Assembly: GCF_000732925.1 (NCBI RefSeq)
Contig: NZ_CP008953.1
Coordinates: forward strand, 1,984,001 to 2,048,000
Source: Amycolatopsis japonica
Lineage (GTDB): Bacteria > Actinomycetota > Actinomycetes > Mycobacteriales > Pseudonocardiaceae
Length of the DNA stretch: 64,000 nucleotides
Direction of reading: 5' to 3'
The translations under genes were made by a program, and so were the position numbers. The notes under the pieces were generated by a model, which was not told the origin of the DNA, ran no database searches, and saw only the letters and a list, made by a program, of their open reading frames with translations. Within the stretch, counting starts at the first letter, position 1. Every line of letters starts with the position of its first letter. Of the stretch, positions 26,930-32,497 are shown in pieces.

Positions 26930-27769
26930 GTGCGCTGGTTTCCCCGAGCTCTCTCCTCCTCCCGCCGCGGCGGCGAGGAGGTGCTGCCGAGTCCGAACAT
27001 CTGGTATTACCAAAAGGCCTACGAGGTCGAAAACCGCGCGCAGGACGTCGACGACGAGATCTGGCGCGTGCTCACCGGGGCCCGCGATTGGTCCGGGGCG
27101 GACGTCCTCGACATCGGCTGTGGTGACGGTTTCCACCTGCCGCGGTTCGCCGCGACGGCGCGGTCGGTGGTCGGCGTCGAACCCCATGAGCCGCTCGTCC
27201 GTGACGCGCGGAACCGCGTGGAGCGGCTGGCGAACGTCGAGGTGCGGCAGGGGCGTGCGCAGCGGCTTCCCTTGCCGGACGAGGCTTTCGACGTCGTCCA
27301 CGCCCGCACCGCGTACTTCTTCGGCCCCGGTTGCGAACCCGGTCTTCGCGAAGCGGAGCGGGTGCTGCGCCCGGGTGGGCTGATGATGATCGTGGATCTC
27401 GACGTGACGAGTGAGCCCTACGGCCGCTGGATGCGGCTGGATCTGCCGCACTACGACCCGCCCGGGGTCGAGAAGTTCTTCGCGCGTCAGGGATTCGACT
27501 GCCGCAAGGTGATGACGCGGTGGCTGTTCGAAGACGCCGCCGCGATGGACGCGGTGCTGAAGATCGAGTTCAGCGCTCCGGTCGCGGCGAAGGCGATCGC
27601 GGAGGTCCGGCGGCTCAACGAGGTTTCGTCAGGTACCGGGGAGAAGCAGGTGACGCTGCCGGTGGGCTATCGCGTGCATACGCGCGCCAAGCCCACCGGC
27701 CTCGTCGTGCCGGATCACTCCGTGTCCTCGTCCGGGGCGGTGTCCTCGGCCTCGCCGAGGATGCCGTAG
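26930..27769 (+). CDS. Class I SAM-dependent methyltransferase
   Basis: 279 residues from GTG 26930, with GGAG five bases upstream. The SAM-binding Rossmann fold shows motif I VLDIGCGDGFHLPRF near residue 63, acidic motif II in VVGVEPHEPL, and motif III-IV FDVVHARTAYFF followed by RVLRPGGLMMIVDLDV. The N-terminal SPNIWYYQKAYEVENRAQD motif is one I associate with conserved actinobacterial proteins of unknown substrate. The 3' end overlaps the convergent padR-like gene by 55 bases. It is not obviously part of the RiPP operon, which lies on the other strand. Confidence 0.87.
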   Translation: MRWFPRALSSSRRGGEEVLPSPNIWYYQKAYEVENRAQDVDDEIWRVLTGARDWSGADVLDIGCGDGFHLPRFAATARSVVGVEPHEPLVRDARNRVERLANVEVRQGRAQRLPLPDEAFDVVHARTAYFFGPGCEPGLREAERVLRPGGLMMIVDLDVTSEPYGRWMRLDLPHYDPPGVEKFFARQGFDCRKVMTRWLFEDAAAMDAVLKIEFSAPVAAKAIAEVRRLNEVSSGTGEKQVTLPVGYRVHTRAKPTGLVVPDHSVSSSGAVSSASPRMP

Positions 27770-28326
27770 ATCGTCCGGCGTGCCTCGTTGAGGACGTCGA
27801 CGGTGCGGGCCTGCTGGCTTTCGCTGCCGGCGTGCATGACCTGCGCGACCGCCGCGGCCAGGGTCGCGCCCGCCTTGCGCAGGTTCACCTCGACCGGGTC
27901 GACGTCGTGGGCGATCTGCTCCCACGGCGGGACGGCGTCCTGCTGCTCGGCCGCGGCGCGGCCGGATTCGGTGAGCTCGAACAGCTTCTTGCCGTTCTCG
28001 TCCTTGCTGATCACCAGGCCTTCGTCGGCCAGCATCTGCAGGGTCGGGTAGACCGAGCCGGGGCTCGGCTTCCAGAAGCCGCCGCTGCGTTCGCCGATCT
28101 CACGGATGATCTCGTAGCCGTGCCTCGGCTGCTCGGAAAGCAGCGCCAGGATCGCGGCGCGGACGTCACCGCGTTTGCCGCGCCGTCCACCGGGGCCGCC
28201 GCGACGGCCGTGCCGGTGCCGGTGGCCCGGCCCACCCGGGCCCGGGGGGAAGTCGCCGAAGCCGCCGCGAGCCCAGGGCCCGAAGGCGGGTCGGCCGTGT
28301 TCTGGAGGGAAAGGTCGTCGTCGCAT
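27715..28326 (-). CDS. PadR family transcriptional regulator
   Basis: 203 residues from ATG 28326, with AGAGGA upstream. An unusual N-terminal extension (1-50) rich in Gly, Pro, His and Arg (GHRHRHGRRGGPGG) could bind metal or nucleic acid. The winged helix follows: DVRAAILALLSEQPRHGYEI, FWKPSPGSVYPTLQMLADEG and KKLFELTESG. The C-terminal helices dimerise. PadR proteins are usually ligand-released repressors. A CGATATATCG palindrome 38 bases upstream of the start suggests autoregulation. It lies 88 bases behind the GNAT gene on the same strand, so it may regulate the RiPP operon, but that is inferred from position alone. Confidence 0.92.
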   Translation of the reverse strand: MRRRPFPPEHGRPAFGPWARGGFGDFPPGPGGPGHRHRHGRRGGPGGRRGKRGDVRAAILALLSEQPRHGYEIIREIGERSGGFWKPSPGSVYPTLQMLADEGLVISKDENGKKLFELTESGRAAAEQQDAVPPWEQIAHDVDPVEVNLRKAGATLAAAVAQVMHAGSESQQARTVDVLNEARRTIYGILGEAEDTAPDEDTE

Positions 28327-28364
28327 GATGTGAATCCTCTCTTCGTAATGTTCCGACTCGTTCA

Positions 28365-28374
28365 CGATATATCG
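28365..28374. promoter_or_regulatory. Probable PadR operator palindrome
   Basis: CGATATATCG at 28365-28374 is a perfect 10-base palindrome flanked by GTTCA and GAAACA. It is one of few AT-rich spots in the region, and similar ATAT-centred dyads are typical operators of PadR regulators. It sits just upstream of the padR-like gene, in the interval after the GNAT stop. Confidence 0.5.
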
Positions 28375-28414
28375 GAAACAGTCGTACGGCAACCCGTCTT
28401 CGGTGATCTGGGTC

Positions 28415-28882
28415 TCAGGAGAGGGCGAGTGCGAGCAGGTCGATGCCGCCGGAGTCGAACGCGCCGACCTTCCGCCATCCCCAACGGTGATAGAGCCGCC
28501 GCGCCGGCGCCTCGACGCGTGAGGCGAGTACGGCGAACCGTTCCGGTCGCTCTTTCAGCAGGTCGTCGAGCAGAGCGCGGCCCAGTCCGCGGCCACGGAG
28601 CTCGGGGACGAGCGCCAGTTCGTATACGTAGAACAGCTCCTCGCCGTCGAGCCACGAGGGAGCCGGAGCCGTCGCACGGCCAGGCCACCAGCCGGCTTCT
28701 CGCCGGACCCCGTAGGCGAAGCCGCCGATCGTTCCGGCTTCGCGCACCGTCGTCATGGCGAACCCGGGGAGCGCGGCGTGTTCGGCGAACAGCACGCCGA
28801 ACCGGGCGACGTCGTCCTCGCCTTCGAGGTAAGGCGGTTCGCGATAGACGCGGCGGTAGACGTCGTCCAGTTCAGAGCGCAC
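28415..28882 (-). CDS. GNAT family N-acetyltransferase of the YcaO cluster
   Basis: 155 residues from GTG 28882, overlapping the MFS stop by 11 bases, so coupled to it. The GNAT fold is clear: FYVYELALVPELRGRGLGRALLDDLL near residue 90 contains the acetyl-CoA pyrophosphate loop (RGRGLGRA), followed by RVEAPARRLYHRWGWRKVG, typical of the last strands. Members acetylate amines of small molecules, peptides or proteins. As last gene of the peptide-YcaO-MFS operon it may acetylate the mature peptide or provide immunity (inference). Confidence 0.88.
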   Translation of the reverse strand: MRSELDDVYRRVYREPPYLEGEDDVARFGVLFAEHAALPGFAMTTVREAGTIGGFAYGVRREAGWWPGRATAPAPSWLDGEELFYVYELALVPELRGRGLGRALLDDLLKERPERFAVLASRVEAPARRLYHRWGWRKVGAFDSGGIDLLALALS

Positions 28883-30080
28883 GGTTCAGTCTGCCCAGCA
28901 CCACGATCGCCACGCCACAGAAGCCGATCAGCACCAGCCACGGCAGAGCCGGACCGTGCGACAGCAACCAGGTGAACATCGCCGGGGCGATCACCCGCGC
29001 CGCGCTCCACACGAGTTCTTCGAGGCCGAGATAGCGGCCGCGCAGCCGCGCCGGGGCGATCGCGACGGTCAGCGCGCTGCTGGTCGGCGCCTGGAGCAGT
29101 TCGGCGCAGGTGAAGACGATCATCGCGAGGGCGAGCACGAGGAACGCCGCCGTGGACTCTCCGGTGGGTACCAGCGCGAACAGGGCGAACGAGATCGCCC
29201 AGACCGCGGCCGAGAGCCGGAGTGTGCGCGGCATGCTTCGCCGCTCGACCCGGCGTGACACCACGGTCTGCGCGAGCACGATCAGCACCGTGTTGACCGT
29301 GAACAGGACCCCGGGCTGCCAAGCCGGCAGCTTCAGGCCGTCGAGGACGTAGGCGCTCAGCAGGACGGTCAACGCCAGGTCGCACAACGCGAAGACGAAG
29401 ACGGTCACGAGAACGCCGCGAAAGATCCGGTCGGCGAACACCTTCCGGTAGCCGCCGGCGGGAGCGGCCTCCGGTTCGGTCTCGCGCGGGGTGCCCGCCG
29501 GGGCGCGCCACGACGCGACCAGAACCGCGGCGACGACGAAACTAGCGGCGTTCACCAGCACGATCGCCGTGTAGCCGGCGGTGCCGCCCCACGCGACCAT
29601 CGCCGCGCCGAGGAGCCCGCCGAGCCCGATGCCGACGTTGCGCAGCGCGCGTTCCATCGCATACCAGCGGGCGCGCTGGCCGTCGTCGGCCACCTGCGCC
29701 ACCAGCGCGCCGGTCGACGGCCAGAACATGCCCTCGCCCCAGAAGGTCACCGCGGCCAGGACGACCAGATGCCACGCCTCGTCGGCGAAGACGTAGCCGG
29801 TGAAGGTCACCGCCCGGATCAGGTTGGCGGTGATCACCATCCGGCCTGGTCCGAACCGGTCGATCAGCCGTCCCGCGAGCGGCCCCGACGGCAACGCGAT
29901 CAGCGCCGCGATCGACAGCGCCGCTCCGACGGCCGTCAGCGAAAGGCCCTTGGCCGCGTGGAAGTACACGACGGCGAACGGGAGGAACAGACCGGTCCCG
30001 AGCGCGTCGACGCTTTGCGCCGCGATGAGCGGGAACCGCCCGCGGGTGCTGGGGAGACCGAGCAGGTCCGCGGTGGCCAT
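28872..30080 (-). CDS. MFS transporter of the YcaO cluster
   Basis: 402 residues from ATG 30080, which overlaps the YcaO stop (TGATG), so the two are translationally coupled. Twelve hydrophobic segments can be drawn; the loop 2-3 motif is present as GPLAGRLIDRFGPGRMVI, and the second half repeats it as VSRRVERRSMPRTLRL. The family is drug:proton antiport-like (DHA1). In this operon it most likely exports the modified peptide and gives self-resistance. An upstream in-frame extension into the YcaO gene is not credible. Confidence 0.9.
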   Translation of the reverse strand: MATADLLGLPSTRGRFPLIAAQSVDALGTGLFLPFAVVYFHAAKGLSLTAVGAALSIAALIALPSGPLAGRLIDRFGPGRMVITANLIRAVTFTGYVFADEAWHLVVLAAVTFWGEGMFWPSTGALVAQVADDGQRARWYAMERALRNVGIGLGGLLGAAMVAWGGTAGYTAIVLVNAASFVVAAVLVASWRAPAGTPRETEPEAAPAGGYRKVFADRIFRGVLVTVFVFALCDLALTVLLSAYVLDGLKLPAWQPGVLFTVNTVLIVLAQTVVSRRVERRSMPRTLRLSAAVWAISFALFALVPTGESTAAFLVLALAMIVFTCAELLQAPTSSALTVAIAPARLRGRYLGLEELVWSAARVIAPAMFTWLLSHGPALPWLVLIGFCGVAIVVLGRLNRAL

Positions 30081-32248
30081 CACGCGTGGGGAAGCGGGAA
30101 GACGTTGAGTTCGTGCTCGGCGAGAGGTTCGTCCCGCCAGCCGAGTTCCACGGCCGCGTCGGCGATCCTTCCGTTCCCCCACAACGGCGATCCGGCGGGG
30201 AAGTTCGAAACGAGGCCCGGCACGAGCGTATGCGCGGCGTGGAATCCGGCGGCCGCGACGTCACAGGTCGTCAGGTCGACGCTGATCACCTCGAACCCCC
30301 GGCTTTCGACGCGGGCTTGGTAGGCCTTGAGCCGCCGCTCGCCGAGGGCGGGAAGATCGGCCCAGTCGCGGCTCGGCAGGTCCATGACCCAGGGCTTCAC
30401 TCGCTTCGCGGCCCGTGGGTCGAGGTAGATCTGTTGCTGGCAAAGGAGATCCGCGACATCGGCGAAATCGTGGCGATACGAGTCCAGGTAGCGCCGATCG
30501 GCCCGGTGCGGTTTGAGGTTGCCCAGATGCGGCAGGTCCCGGCGCATACCGGACAGCTCGCGTTCGTCGTCGAGTGCGTGGCAGGTGTGCTGGAGCGTGA
30601 AGCCTTCGGCGAGCGCCTTCTTGGCGGCCTCCAGTGCGTCCGGCCGGGCCGCGAAGCCGATCGACAGCCAGCGCTTCACCCGGTCGAACACCGCCGCGGC
30701 GATCACCGGGACGTCGAACTCGTTGTCCAGGTGGATGAGCGCGACCTCGTAGTCGTCGGTGGCGTCGGCGATGAGCGACCGGATCTCGTCCGGGATCGAG
30801 AGACGGCCGAGGCGTGGTGTGTTGGCCCACCAGAGCATGGTCGTGTCGCGCTCGAGAACCTCTTCGAGGCCGGACGTGACGGCGTGCTCCTCGGTGGTCC
30901 CGCTCGCGAGGCCCGCGATCAGAGGGTCGGCGAAATGCGCTTCCCCGGGTCGGCGTTCGTTCGAGAACAGGAAAGCCGGAATCCACACGGGTTCGCCGGT
31001 GGTGTGGGAGAAGCCTTCCACCCACGAACACTCCGTGTCCCGGGTGAGCGGCGCGAACGGGAAACCCGGCGACCGGTACTGCGAAGCCGAATAGAGGTTC
31101 AGCCGTCGAGGGTCGACCGCGGGTACGCCGTAGCGGAGGAACTGGTTGTAGCTGCCGAAGCACACTTCGCGCTCCGGAGCGAGCCAGCTTCCGCAGTACC
31201 GCTCGACAGCTTCGCCGATGGCCGACTGCCGCGCGAGGTCGAAGTCGTACCACGACGTGCCGAAGGCCTGACGGTCGTTGGGCCAGTTCGTCACCCGGCG
31301 CATGTCCGCGACGTCGACCGCGCAGACCCGCAGCCGGGCGGGCATTCCCGGGGTGGGCGGGATTTCGCCGACGCCGGTCACGATCCCGGTCTGATCGTCC
31401 ACCAGCAGCTCGGGATCGGTCACGGTGGGAACGGTCCGGGCCCGGTCGGGGACGGGGAGGATCGGGCGGCGGATCTCGGTCAGGTCCGCAGGGTTGAGTT
31501 CGATCTCGCCGGTGGTCATGGCGGTTCGCCCGCCGGAGAGCCAGCGTCCGAGATGGACGGCGAGGGTGGTCAGCGCCCAGCGGGCGTCGCCGGGCCGAAG
31601 CGGGGTGGAGCCGGAGGGGGCGGAAAGGAACGCCTCGACGACACGCGGGTCTTGCGCGGCGGAGCGGCGCCGCGCGACGACGTCGGCGAAATCGATGCCG
31701 CCGGGCGCGATCGCGGGTCCGGCGATCACGCGGCCACGTTCGCGGCGCAACGGAAGCCAGCGCACCCCGCTTCCGGCGCACAACGCGTCCAGCGCGATCA
31801 ATTCGGTGTAGGCGGGGTGATCGAAGGCGGAGACCACGACGGTGTTGTTCAGGTCCATTTCGGACAGGTCATGGAAGTAAGGGACCGTTTCGACGCTCGC
31901 GTACCCGACCGCCTCGAGGATCTCCGCCAGCGGCTCGATGAGCACGGGCGAGCCGGTGAGAACGATCGCGGTGGTGGTGACGTCGTCGGCCTCGGTGCCC
32001 CGGTCGGGACGGAGGCAGCCGTCCGCTTCGAGGATGTCCATCATTTCCGCGTAATCCGGATTCATGCCGTCCAGCAGTTCGGCGCGAGTCCGGGTGCCGT
32101 CGCAACGGCTCGCCCAGGCGCGGAATTCCCCGGTGGGCGCGGCGATGTAGAACTGTCCCCCGTTGGGGGTGACGAGAAAGCAGAGCTCTGGTTCGAGATC
32201 GGTGATCTCGATCCCGTCGAGCCGCGGTCTGACCTCTTCGGACCCCAT
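30080..32248 (-). CDS. YcaO cyclodehydratase fused to a leader-binding/E1-like domain (TOMM-type RiPP enzyme)
   Basis: 722 residues from ATG 32248. Residues about 10-90 (PELCFLVTPNGGQFYIAA, then EMMDILEADGCLRPD) look like a RiPP recognition element (PqqD-like winged helix). Residues 90-200 are a degenerate ThiF/E1-like part. From about 270 on it is YcaO: SAIGEAVERYCGSW (SxxxExxER, ATP/Mg site), GLEEVLERDTTMLWW, QHTCHALDDEREL, and a Pro-containing C-terminus ending FPLPHA, as in azoline cyclodehydratases where the C-terminal prolines matter. YcaO enzymes phosphorylate a backbone amide to make azolines, thioamides or amidines. The putative substrate gene lies 87 bases upstream behind a hairpin. 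No separate dehydrogenase or TfuA gene is present. Confidence 0.93.
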   Translation of the reverse strand: MGSEEVRPRLDGIEITDLEPELCFLVTPNGGQFYIAAPTGEFRAWASRCDGTRTRAELLDGMNPDYAEMMDILEADGCLRPDRGTEADDVTTTAIVLTGSPVLIEPLAEILEAVGYASVETVPYFHDLSEMDLNNTVVVSAFDHPAYTELIALDALCAGSGVRWLPLRRERGRVIAGPAIAPGGIDFADVVARRRSAAQDPRVVEAFLSAPSGSTPLRPGDARWALTTLAVHLGRWLSGGRTAMTTGEIELNPADLTEIRRPILPVPDRARTVPTVTDPELLVDDQTGIVTGVGEIPPTPGMPARLRVCAVDVADMRRVTNWPNDRQAFGTSWYDFDLARQSAIGEAVERYCGSWLAPEREVCFGSYNQFLRYGVPAVDPRRLNLYSASQYRSPGFPFAPLTRDTECSWVEGFSHTTGEPVWIPAFLFSNERRPGEAHFADPLIAGLASGTTEEHAVTSGLEEVLERDTTMLWWANTPRLGRLSIPDEIRSLIADATDDYEVALIHLDNEFDVPVIAAAVFDRVKRWLSIGFAARPDALEAAKKALAEGFTLQHTCHALDDERELSGMRRDLPHLGNLKPHRADRRYLDSYRHDFADVADLLCQQQIYLDPRAAKRVKPWVMDLPSRDWADLPALGERRLKAYQARVESRGFEVISVDLTTCDVAAAGFHAAHTLVPGLVSNFPAGSPLWGNGRIADAAVELGWRDEPLAEHELNVFPLPHA

Positions 32249-32279: not shown

Positions 32280-32316
32280 CGCCGCCGCGATCCCCGTGGC
32301 CGGGATCGCGGCGGCG
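32280..32316 (-). terminator. Hairpin between the precursor gene and the YcaO gene
   Basis: CGCCGCCGCGATCCC (32280-32294) pairs perfectly with GGGATCGCGGCGGCG (32302-32316), a 15-bp stem with a 7-base loop. It lies 20 bases behind the peptide stop and 32 bases before the enzyme start, without a T-run. In RiPP operons such a structure typically lowers read-through or stabilises the precursor mRNA, so that peptide exceeds enzyme. Confidence 0.75.
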
Positions 32317-32335: not shown

Positions 32336-32470
32336 TTACTTGGCGGCGGAACGGTTGTGCACGACCGCGCGGTTGTGCACGACGGCGCGGTTGTGGACGA
32401 CCGCGCGGTTGTGGACCACGGCGCGGTTGTGGACGACGACGGCGGCGGGGCGCTCGAAGGTCGAGATCAT
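32336..32470 (-). CDS. Repeat-core RiPP precursor peptide (five VVHNRA hexads)
   Basis: 44-residue peptide from ATG 32470 with a textbook AGGAGG four bases upstream, ending in TAA. The N-terminus is MISTFERPAAV (leader-like), followed from residue 12 by four VVHNRA units and a fifth VVHNR-S, then AAK. The five 18-bp units (32437 down to 32348) differ only at third codon positions of Val, Ala and Arg, apart from the final Ala-to-Ser, so selection acts on the peptide. The hexads contain no Cys or Thr, the only Ser is the last residue of unit five, and the remaining S/T are S3 and T4. Directly upstream of a YcaO fusion with a leader-binding domain on the same strand. Modified residues are unknown; His, Asn, Arg or the backbone are candidates. 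Confidence 0.88.
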   Translation of the reverse strand: MISTFERPAAVVVHNRAVVHNRAVVHNRAVVHNRAVVHNRSAAK

Positions 32471-32497
32471 GGTTCCTCCTGTAGTTCACTCGGGGTC

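Follow-up and report, generated by a model that had tools for sequence, protein, structure and literature searches.

In the 64,000-nucleotide stretch of Amycolatopsis japonica DNA analyzed here (the window), a gene for a 44-residue peptide with five tandem VVHNR(A/S) hexads heads a unit that further encodes a YcaO fusion enzyme, an MFS transporter and a GNAT acetyltransferase. We consider it very likely that this peptide is the precursor and substrate of the adjoining YcaO, and probable, with rather less confidence, that it is a RiPP precursor heading the YcaO/MFS/GNAT genes, in which four to six VVHNR[A] units form a repeated core predicted to undergo backbone modification by the fused enzyme. 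A repeat-core RiPP precursor beside a YcaO had been proposed in a preliminary description of the window, and codon-level selection, the conservation of the four-gene unit and its joint loss make this the best reading. It probably supplies the starting material of a secreted peptide natural product, although most of its repeats are without the residues on which YcaO-type enzymes usually act. The features are as follows:

32336..32470, minus strand: probable precursor peptide gene, 44 residues, stop codon included (sequence; 19 further intact orthologous loci)
32475..32480, minus strand: AGGAGG ribosome-binding site, 4 nt upstream of the ATG (sequence)
32438..32470, minus strand: leader-like start MISTFERPAAV, residues 1–11 (putative leader role)
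32348..32437, minus strand: five tandem 18-bp units, VVHNRA four times and VVHNRS once, at 32437-32420, 32419-32402, 32401-32384, 32383-32366 and 32365-32348 (sequence)
32280..32316, minus strand: perfect 15-bp inverted repeat with a 7-nt loop and no T run, between the peptide and YcaO genes (putative function)
30080..32248, minus strand: YcaO fusion enzyme, 722 aa (Pfam PF02624, E 1.6e-57; TIGR03604, 264 bits against a cut-off of 219)
32248-32003, minus strand: RRE domain, residues about 1–82 (fold matches)
32002-31436, minus strand: E1-like domain, residues about 83–271 (fold matches)
31420-30083, minus strand: YcaO domain, residues about 277–722 (PF02624; fold matches)
28872..30080, minus strand: MFS transporter, about 402 aa if starting at the ATG that overlaps the YcaO stop (PF07690, E 9.5e-43; putative export role)
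28415..28882, minus strand: GNAT acetyltransferase, 155 aa, overlapping the MFS end (PF13508, E 5.7e-07)

The peptide gene and the variation of its repeats

Read from 32470 to 32336 on the minus strand, the gene translates as MISTFERPAAV followed by four VVHNRA units, one VVHNRS unit, AAK and a stop codon, exactly as first described, including the 11-residue leader-like start ahead of the repeats. The AGGAGG site reported at the same time is also present, although calling its distance ideal was slightly generous at 4 nt from the ATG; a site of the AGGAGG or GGAGG type lies upstream of the peptide gene in all 20 intact loci compared below. Residue 1 is Met or a TTG start, and all 20 intact peptides retain Ile2 and Ser3; those of the genus begin [ML]IS[TSI][FV][EV]RP (TTG start in three genes) and those of Streptomyces MIS[TA]VK. 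At the other end, Ser or Thr directly follows the last HNR and the terminal residue is Lys, again in 20/20. The repeats contain no Cys; past the leader, Ser or Thr either closes the final unit or lies in the tail.

The gene is tiny and overlooked. The peptide belongs to no Pfam or NCBIfam family, and a search of about 5.8 billion proteins with its 44 residues returned a single match at E ≤ 0.01, partial and chimeric-looking, which bears out the earlier label "unannotated". This sole record begins like the peptide and continues like the peptide's reverse strand, and thus looks like a hairpin or assembly chimera. For the VVHNRA unit and motif strings including VVHNR, APHNHA and VNTCVAA, we found no description in the accessible portions of the open-licence literature.

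Across the 20 intact genes, 96 units are encoded by 27 different DNA forms, and all 96 read VVHNR without exception; position six holds Ala in 88 units, Ser in seven and Thr in one, with Ser and Thr confined to final units. When the VVHNR copies within each gene are compared, all 247 pairwise differences (20 genes) fall at codon position 3, and the five units of the window's gene differ only synonymously apart from the last Ala/Ser, as had been noted. Three or more distinct DNA forms of the unit are present in 19 of the 20 genes, and recent copying alone is therefore not the explanation. Among 14 aligned 44-codon genes, codons 12–40 vary at 17 nucleotide sites, every one of them a third position, whereas the leader and tail also change residues. 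The peptide reading frame is under purifying selection, and the claim of selection on the peptide, made from the window's gene, extends to its orthologs.

Distribution and joint decay of the four-gene unit

A search with the YcaO protein across 80 genomes of the genus (Amycolatopsis) found a relative at ≥58% identity in 25, of which 15 have an intact peptide gene and ten are without a working one. A further five loci, in Streptomyces (katrae, halstedii, toxytricini, BR123 and H27-S2), came from a named-genome scan with two peptide patterns; their YcaOs are 62–65% identical and the peptide is present in 5/5. The Amycolatopsis loci of that scan (L102–L107, L110, L114–L116) were taken to be those already counted and were not added again. 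In the peptide search of the genus genomes, matches in G000, G003, G005 and G019 were taken as real, and a match at L007 (E 5e-6), which is without the VVHNR repeat, was rejected. Unit number is five in the genus peptides (six in one of them) and four in the Streptomyces peptides; co-occurrence with varied repeat counts near YcaO genes, suggested at the outset as a check, is thus found across the 20 intact loci.

The gene order is peptide, RRE/E1-like/YcaO fusion, MFS transporter and GNAT, the YcaO gene starting 87 nt past the stop of the peptide directly above it, as described, and all four genes are detected by tblastn in 20/20 intact loci (15 Amycolatopsis and five Streptomyces). The remaining flanking genes differ by insertion site, as judged with a crude ORF caller. 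A PadR gene (27715-28392) was rejected as a fifth member, being near full length in 10/10 loci of the window's clade regardless of the peptide and absent from the other compared loci. A DUF885 gene, possibly encoding a peptidase, lies near the peptide in 5/5 Streptomyces loci (L108, L109, L111, L112, L113; Pfam run on L108); it is not counted in the unit because it was not seen in the genus loci, and the intact loci share no hydrolase or peptidase gene. Metal uptake genes were not recognized within the unit. PADLOC gave no family at E ≤ 0.01 for the peptide, enzyme, MFS or GNAT, and a defence system was ruled out on this ground.

Loss of the peptide is accompanied by loss of its neighbors. In the ten peptide-less genus loci a whole MFS gene is found in none and GNAT is missing or fragmented in every one (tblastn); as a control, the PadR neighbor was detected in 10/10 loci of the window's clade. 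In one recent loser (L072, in G019) three hexads remain, the start codon and ribosome site are lost, only MFS residues 310–404 persist and GNAT is in two pieces; in the other (L073, in G014) the peptide remnant has no hexad left, MFS is gone and GNAT survives as fragments. The eight older losers (L089–L096) gave no tblastn match to peptide, MFS or GNAT, and peptide searches of the ten peptide-less genomes revealed no copy elsewhere beyond noise and the L072 remnant. In the enzyme, four conserved YcaO glutamates are all kept in the 20 intact loci and in L072, L073 and L089, and one to four of them are replaced in the remaining seven loci (7/8 older losses). The RRE region (the first ~75–92 residues) is absent in five of the eight older losers (L089–L091, L093, L095), which are not independent, since missing peptide and missing RRE may there be one old deletion. 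A tree used for 30 family rows only, with six open forks and long outgroup branches, requires four to five peptide-state changes, four of them forced by well-supported branches. A Fisher test of peptide against MFS was set aside, as it takes no account of kinship.

Two observations temper the argument from decay. L089 is a counter-example to joint decay, keeping its four glutamates with neither peptide nor RRE. The dN/dS of the YcaO is 0.14–0.29 in intact pairs (n = 9), 0.26–0.35 in older-loser pairs (n = 6), 0.19 in the recent-loser pair and 0.19–0.45 in mixed pairs (n = 7), so that the loser values are raised, not neutral and well under 1, which limits the decay argument. In L089–L096 the YcaO frames are still open over ~580–720 codons even though peptide, MFS and GNAT are gone and active-site glutamates have been replaced; a pseudoenzyme role is possible, or simply recent decay in GC-rich DNA.

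Because loss of MFS and GNAT and replacement of YcaO glutamates accompany peptide loss, over four to five changes in the tree, the peptide and the enzyme most likely belong to one pathway. The preliminary description had held that relatives' YcaO loci lacking any such peptide would speak against its reading. Taken literally, such loci make up 10 of the 25 near genus loci, yet they are decayed, which favors the link. Judged as a RiPP locus in general, the system has a selected small ORF beside a peptide-modifying enzyme, the two being kept or lost together.

The fusion enzyme and its candidate chemistries

The AlphaFold2 model of the fusion enzyme (pLDDT 93.2) shows, by fold search, the RRE/E1-like/YcaO architecture of LynD, TruD and MusD; the VIA-align fold comparison covered Foldseek's best 1000 chains. 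By sequence the top PDB match is MusD (E 5.2e-18), which also ranks among the best matches by fold; TruD and LynD match almost as well. The enzyme scores above the cut-off of the SagD-family model, and its C-terminus is FPLPHA in intact loci. As judged from a 75-sequence alignment (the enzyme and 74 of its 117 collected homologues), the four glutamates E346, E349, E463 and E466 are invariant or ≥90% conserved; they sit in motifs that we take to be the ATP/Mg site of YcaO proteins. With this YcaO domain and its conserved glutamates, preceded by RRE and E1-like folds, we assign the protein to the YcaO enzymes.

We propose that the RRE domain would hold the short peptide start (M-I-S...), and that the YcaO domain would use ATP to activate the backbone amide in successive units. 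The repeats offer no Cys, and Ser or Thr closes only the final unit, so that the attacking group within the array does not come from a side chain able to form an azoline. TfuA (PF07812) is absent from the 9.05-Mb host genome, in a search whose control was positive in 1 of 14 known genomes. Given both points, neither azolines nor TfuA-type thioamides are likely within the repeats. Composition excludes azolines in all but the last unit, cyclizable core sites with Cys, Ser or Thr, as in azol(in)e RiPPs (TOMMs), being lacking apart from the array end; TfuA-type thioamidation was rejected on the absence of TfuA. An amidine as in streptamidine could form at His-Asn, after release of pieces beginning with His (HNRAVV or HNR). 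Export of the product would then fall to the MFS protein, and the GNAT enzyme may acetylate it for tailoring or self-protection; in microcin C, according to the part of the source available, GNAT-type acetylation confers immunity (PMC12250964). Several copies of one small molecule would be expected per precursor. The calculated [M+H]+ is 695.395 for the hexapeptide in any permutation (677.384 dehydrated, 737.405 acetylated, 719.395 with both changes) and 426.221 for HNR (408.210 dehydrated).

The amidine is the leading proposal because some relatives of the enzyme are YcaOs that accompany streptamidine-related precursors (ALVHNPF). A class sample of 394 genomes yielded relatives of the YcaO fusion at E ≤ 1e-60 in 16 genomes other than the window's, and in six of these a precursor matching NF040715 (streptamidine-related) lies within 3 kb of the related YcaO; the 18 genomes that match the streptamidine model itself are not among the YcaO-relative matches. 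Seven NF040715 loci read ALVHNPF, ALVHSPF, ALVQNPF or ALVQSPF, and a locus in the window's genus (L100) has ALVHNPF twice beside two YcaOs 37–38% identical to the fusion, its precursor scoring 119 bits against a cut-off of 45 with the streptamidine-related NCBIfam model. The window peptide matches neither NF040714 nor NF040715 at E ≤ 0.1, nor does a Streptomyces peptide at E ≤ 10. As the peptides match no NCBIfam model, their relation to streptamidine-type precursors is argued from a short motif and related enzymes. In the accessible text on streptamidine, the amidine joins the His1 amine to the Leu2 carbonyl of the core HLSATH, motif B peptides have no residues able to form heterocycles in the corresponding region, a role for ALV in recognition or cleavage is discussed, and metal binding and antibacterial activity were sought and not found (PMC8442711). 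Since the modified core of streptamidine precursors precedes ALV, AVVHNR resembles the follower rather than the core. The backbone amidine step, taken by itself, is a tentative suggestion, which may well prove wrong.

Related loci show other peptide formats. Four sister YcaO fusions (L117–L120; wider stretches L134–L137), 40–47% identical, are accompanied by single short peptides such as MIREVNEAREETIAPHNHAVTAASFHWS, and APHNHA occurs in the peptides of three of them. These sister loci adjoin FecCD, Peripla_BP_2 and paired ABC transporter genes, as identified by Pfam at one locus and for one protein of a second and by homology at the rest. Their Fec-type neighbors hint at a metal-related product for the sister clusters, and the comparison suggests that the His-Asn motif may be old and the tandem array derived. 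Two loci, L060 (G023) and L061 (G072), carry three or four 10-residue units VNTCVAA(S/R/Y)L ahead of a YcaO 42–44% identical, with an MFS gene close by; the L061 peptide has no NCBIfam match. Similar second YcaOs were observed in G003, G005, G068 and G084, and the second YcaO gene of the host genome (G000:C1:6452897-6453886; L001, L101) scores 352.8 bits and is about 26% identical to the fusion. At the more distant YcaO loci L058, L059 and L066, peptides such as MLEIFESFENENELAILANNNVAPEIEFSWDED carry NNN, VAP and F-x-W towards the C-terminus, and the two tested match no NCBIfam model.

MusD-like cleavage is the main rival to the amidine proposal: the YcaO might act mainly as an ATP-dependent peptide cutter, hydrolyzing the activated amide to free units or the tail and leaving the hexads otherwise unmodified save for GNAT acetylation. 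The place of MusD among the PDB matches fits such a role, as does its removal of terminal residues with ATP and water, described in the accessible part of the report (PMC10885120); the units offer nothing to cyclodehydrate, and a peptidase gene common to the intact loci was not found. However, the heterocycle makers TruD and LynD match almost equally, and the likeness to MusD is one of overall sequence and fold. We regard cleavage as the main activity as unlikely.

Somewhat less probable again are one or two azolines at the ends only, at Ser3 or at the Ser/Thr after the last HNR, with the hexads serving as an unmodified functional array, for instance a metal-binding or charged chain. End azolines are possible because all 20 peptides retain Ile2-Ser3 and a Ser/Thr just behind the last HNR, and the SagD-family score and FPLPHA terminus of the enzyme point the same way; the three APHNHA sister loci beside FecCD and Peripla_BP_2 genes are consistent with end azolines on a metal-binding array. 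However, a site at the ends alone gives no reason for VVHNR to stay unchanged in all copies when the leader around it drifts, and the four-gene unit has no recognized metal uptake genes.

Backbone modification of the repeats is thus preferred over both, and the ORF is very improbable as a regulatory leader peptide or attenuator of the YcaO gene, as opposed to a substrate. Its position 87 nt ahead of that gene, with a hairpin in between, would suit attenuation, but the window's hairpin is without a T run, the codons vary freely while the residues do not, and loss of the peptide accompanies loss of MFS and GNAT and decay of the YcaO active site; residue-level conservation and this co-loss led us to reject it. 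A perfect 13–15 bp stem is found in 16/20 intact loci, though the stem sequence differs, and the hairpin may serve uneven expression, giving more precursor than enzyme. A chance repeat in GC-rich DNA, where tandem repeats arise easily and the opposite strand likewise reads as an imperfect repeat, is dismissed as vanishingly improbable, given array variation that is all synonymous in one frame across two genera, four-gene conservation and joint decay with the YcaO active site.

Significance and comparison with known systems

We give somewhat less than an even chance to a broader proposal, a new actinomycete RiPP class in which a 39–50-residue precursor with four to six near-perfect VVHNRA cassettes (recognition AVV, core HNR) and one fused YcaO would yield several small His-Asn-Arg peptides by non-azoline backbone chemistry, without a dedicated protease. 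The system would extend the known precursors by a type that RiPP finders are prone to overlook, with almost no Cys, Ser or Thr and one partial record in 5.8 billion, and it raises the question of how a cyclodehydratase-shaped YcaO acts on a peptide with nothing to cyclodehydrate in its repeats. Non-azoline YcaO chemistry is testable here, as the system is four genes, natural losses provide negative controls, and the named strains that carry it include Amycolatopsis roodepoortensis DSM 46661 and Streptomyces katrae NRRL B-16271.

By sequence comparison, the unit appears to be a variant of YcaO-dependent RiPP systems, whose status as a new class depends on its chemistry. It shares with streptamidine (AmiA; NF040714, NF040715), as far as the accessible text goes, a YcaO with RRE/E1-like help and a precursor without a Ser/Thr/Cys-rich core (PMC8442711); in some streptamidine-related RiPPs the motif is repeated, and ALV[HQ][NS]PF resembles AVVHNR. 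In contrast to streptamidine, RRE/E1-like and YcaO parts are here one protein, the precursor has four to six six-residue units and matches neither precursor model, and the unit contains no amiC hydrolase or fec genes; streptamidine needs AmiC before the amidine forms, whereas the intact loci have no hydrolase in common. Microcin C-type systems (mccA, mccB, mccE), as described in the part of the source available (PMC12250964), differ in that the catalytic part here is a YcaO, and their precursors end in Asn for adenylation, whereas 20/20 peptides here end in Lys. The YcaO-TfuA std cluster, in the accessible part of its description, likewise has a YcaO acting at an Asn-containing motif and an MFS permease (PMC13174530); unlike YcaO-TfuA thioamide RiPP genomes, the present one has no TfuA. 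The cyanobactin-type enzymes LynD, TruD and MusD have the same architecture at about 20% identity to the fusion; unlike in cyanobactins, no cyanobactin protease was recognized in the Pfam annotation of the four genes, and the units lack Cys and have Ser/Thr solely in the closing position of the array. Like the present peptide, the VNTCVAA precursors carry short tandem repeats and are encoded ahead of a related YcaO, near an MFS gene, but their ten-residue units contain Thr-Cys, so that azolines are possible there.
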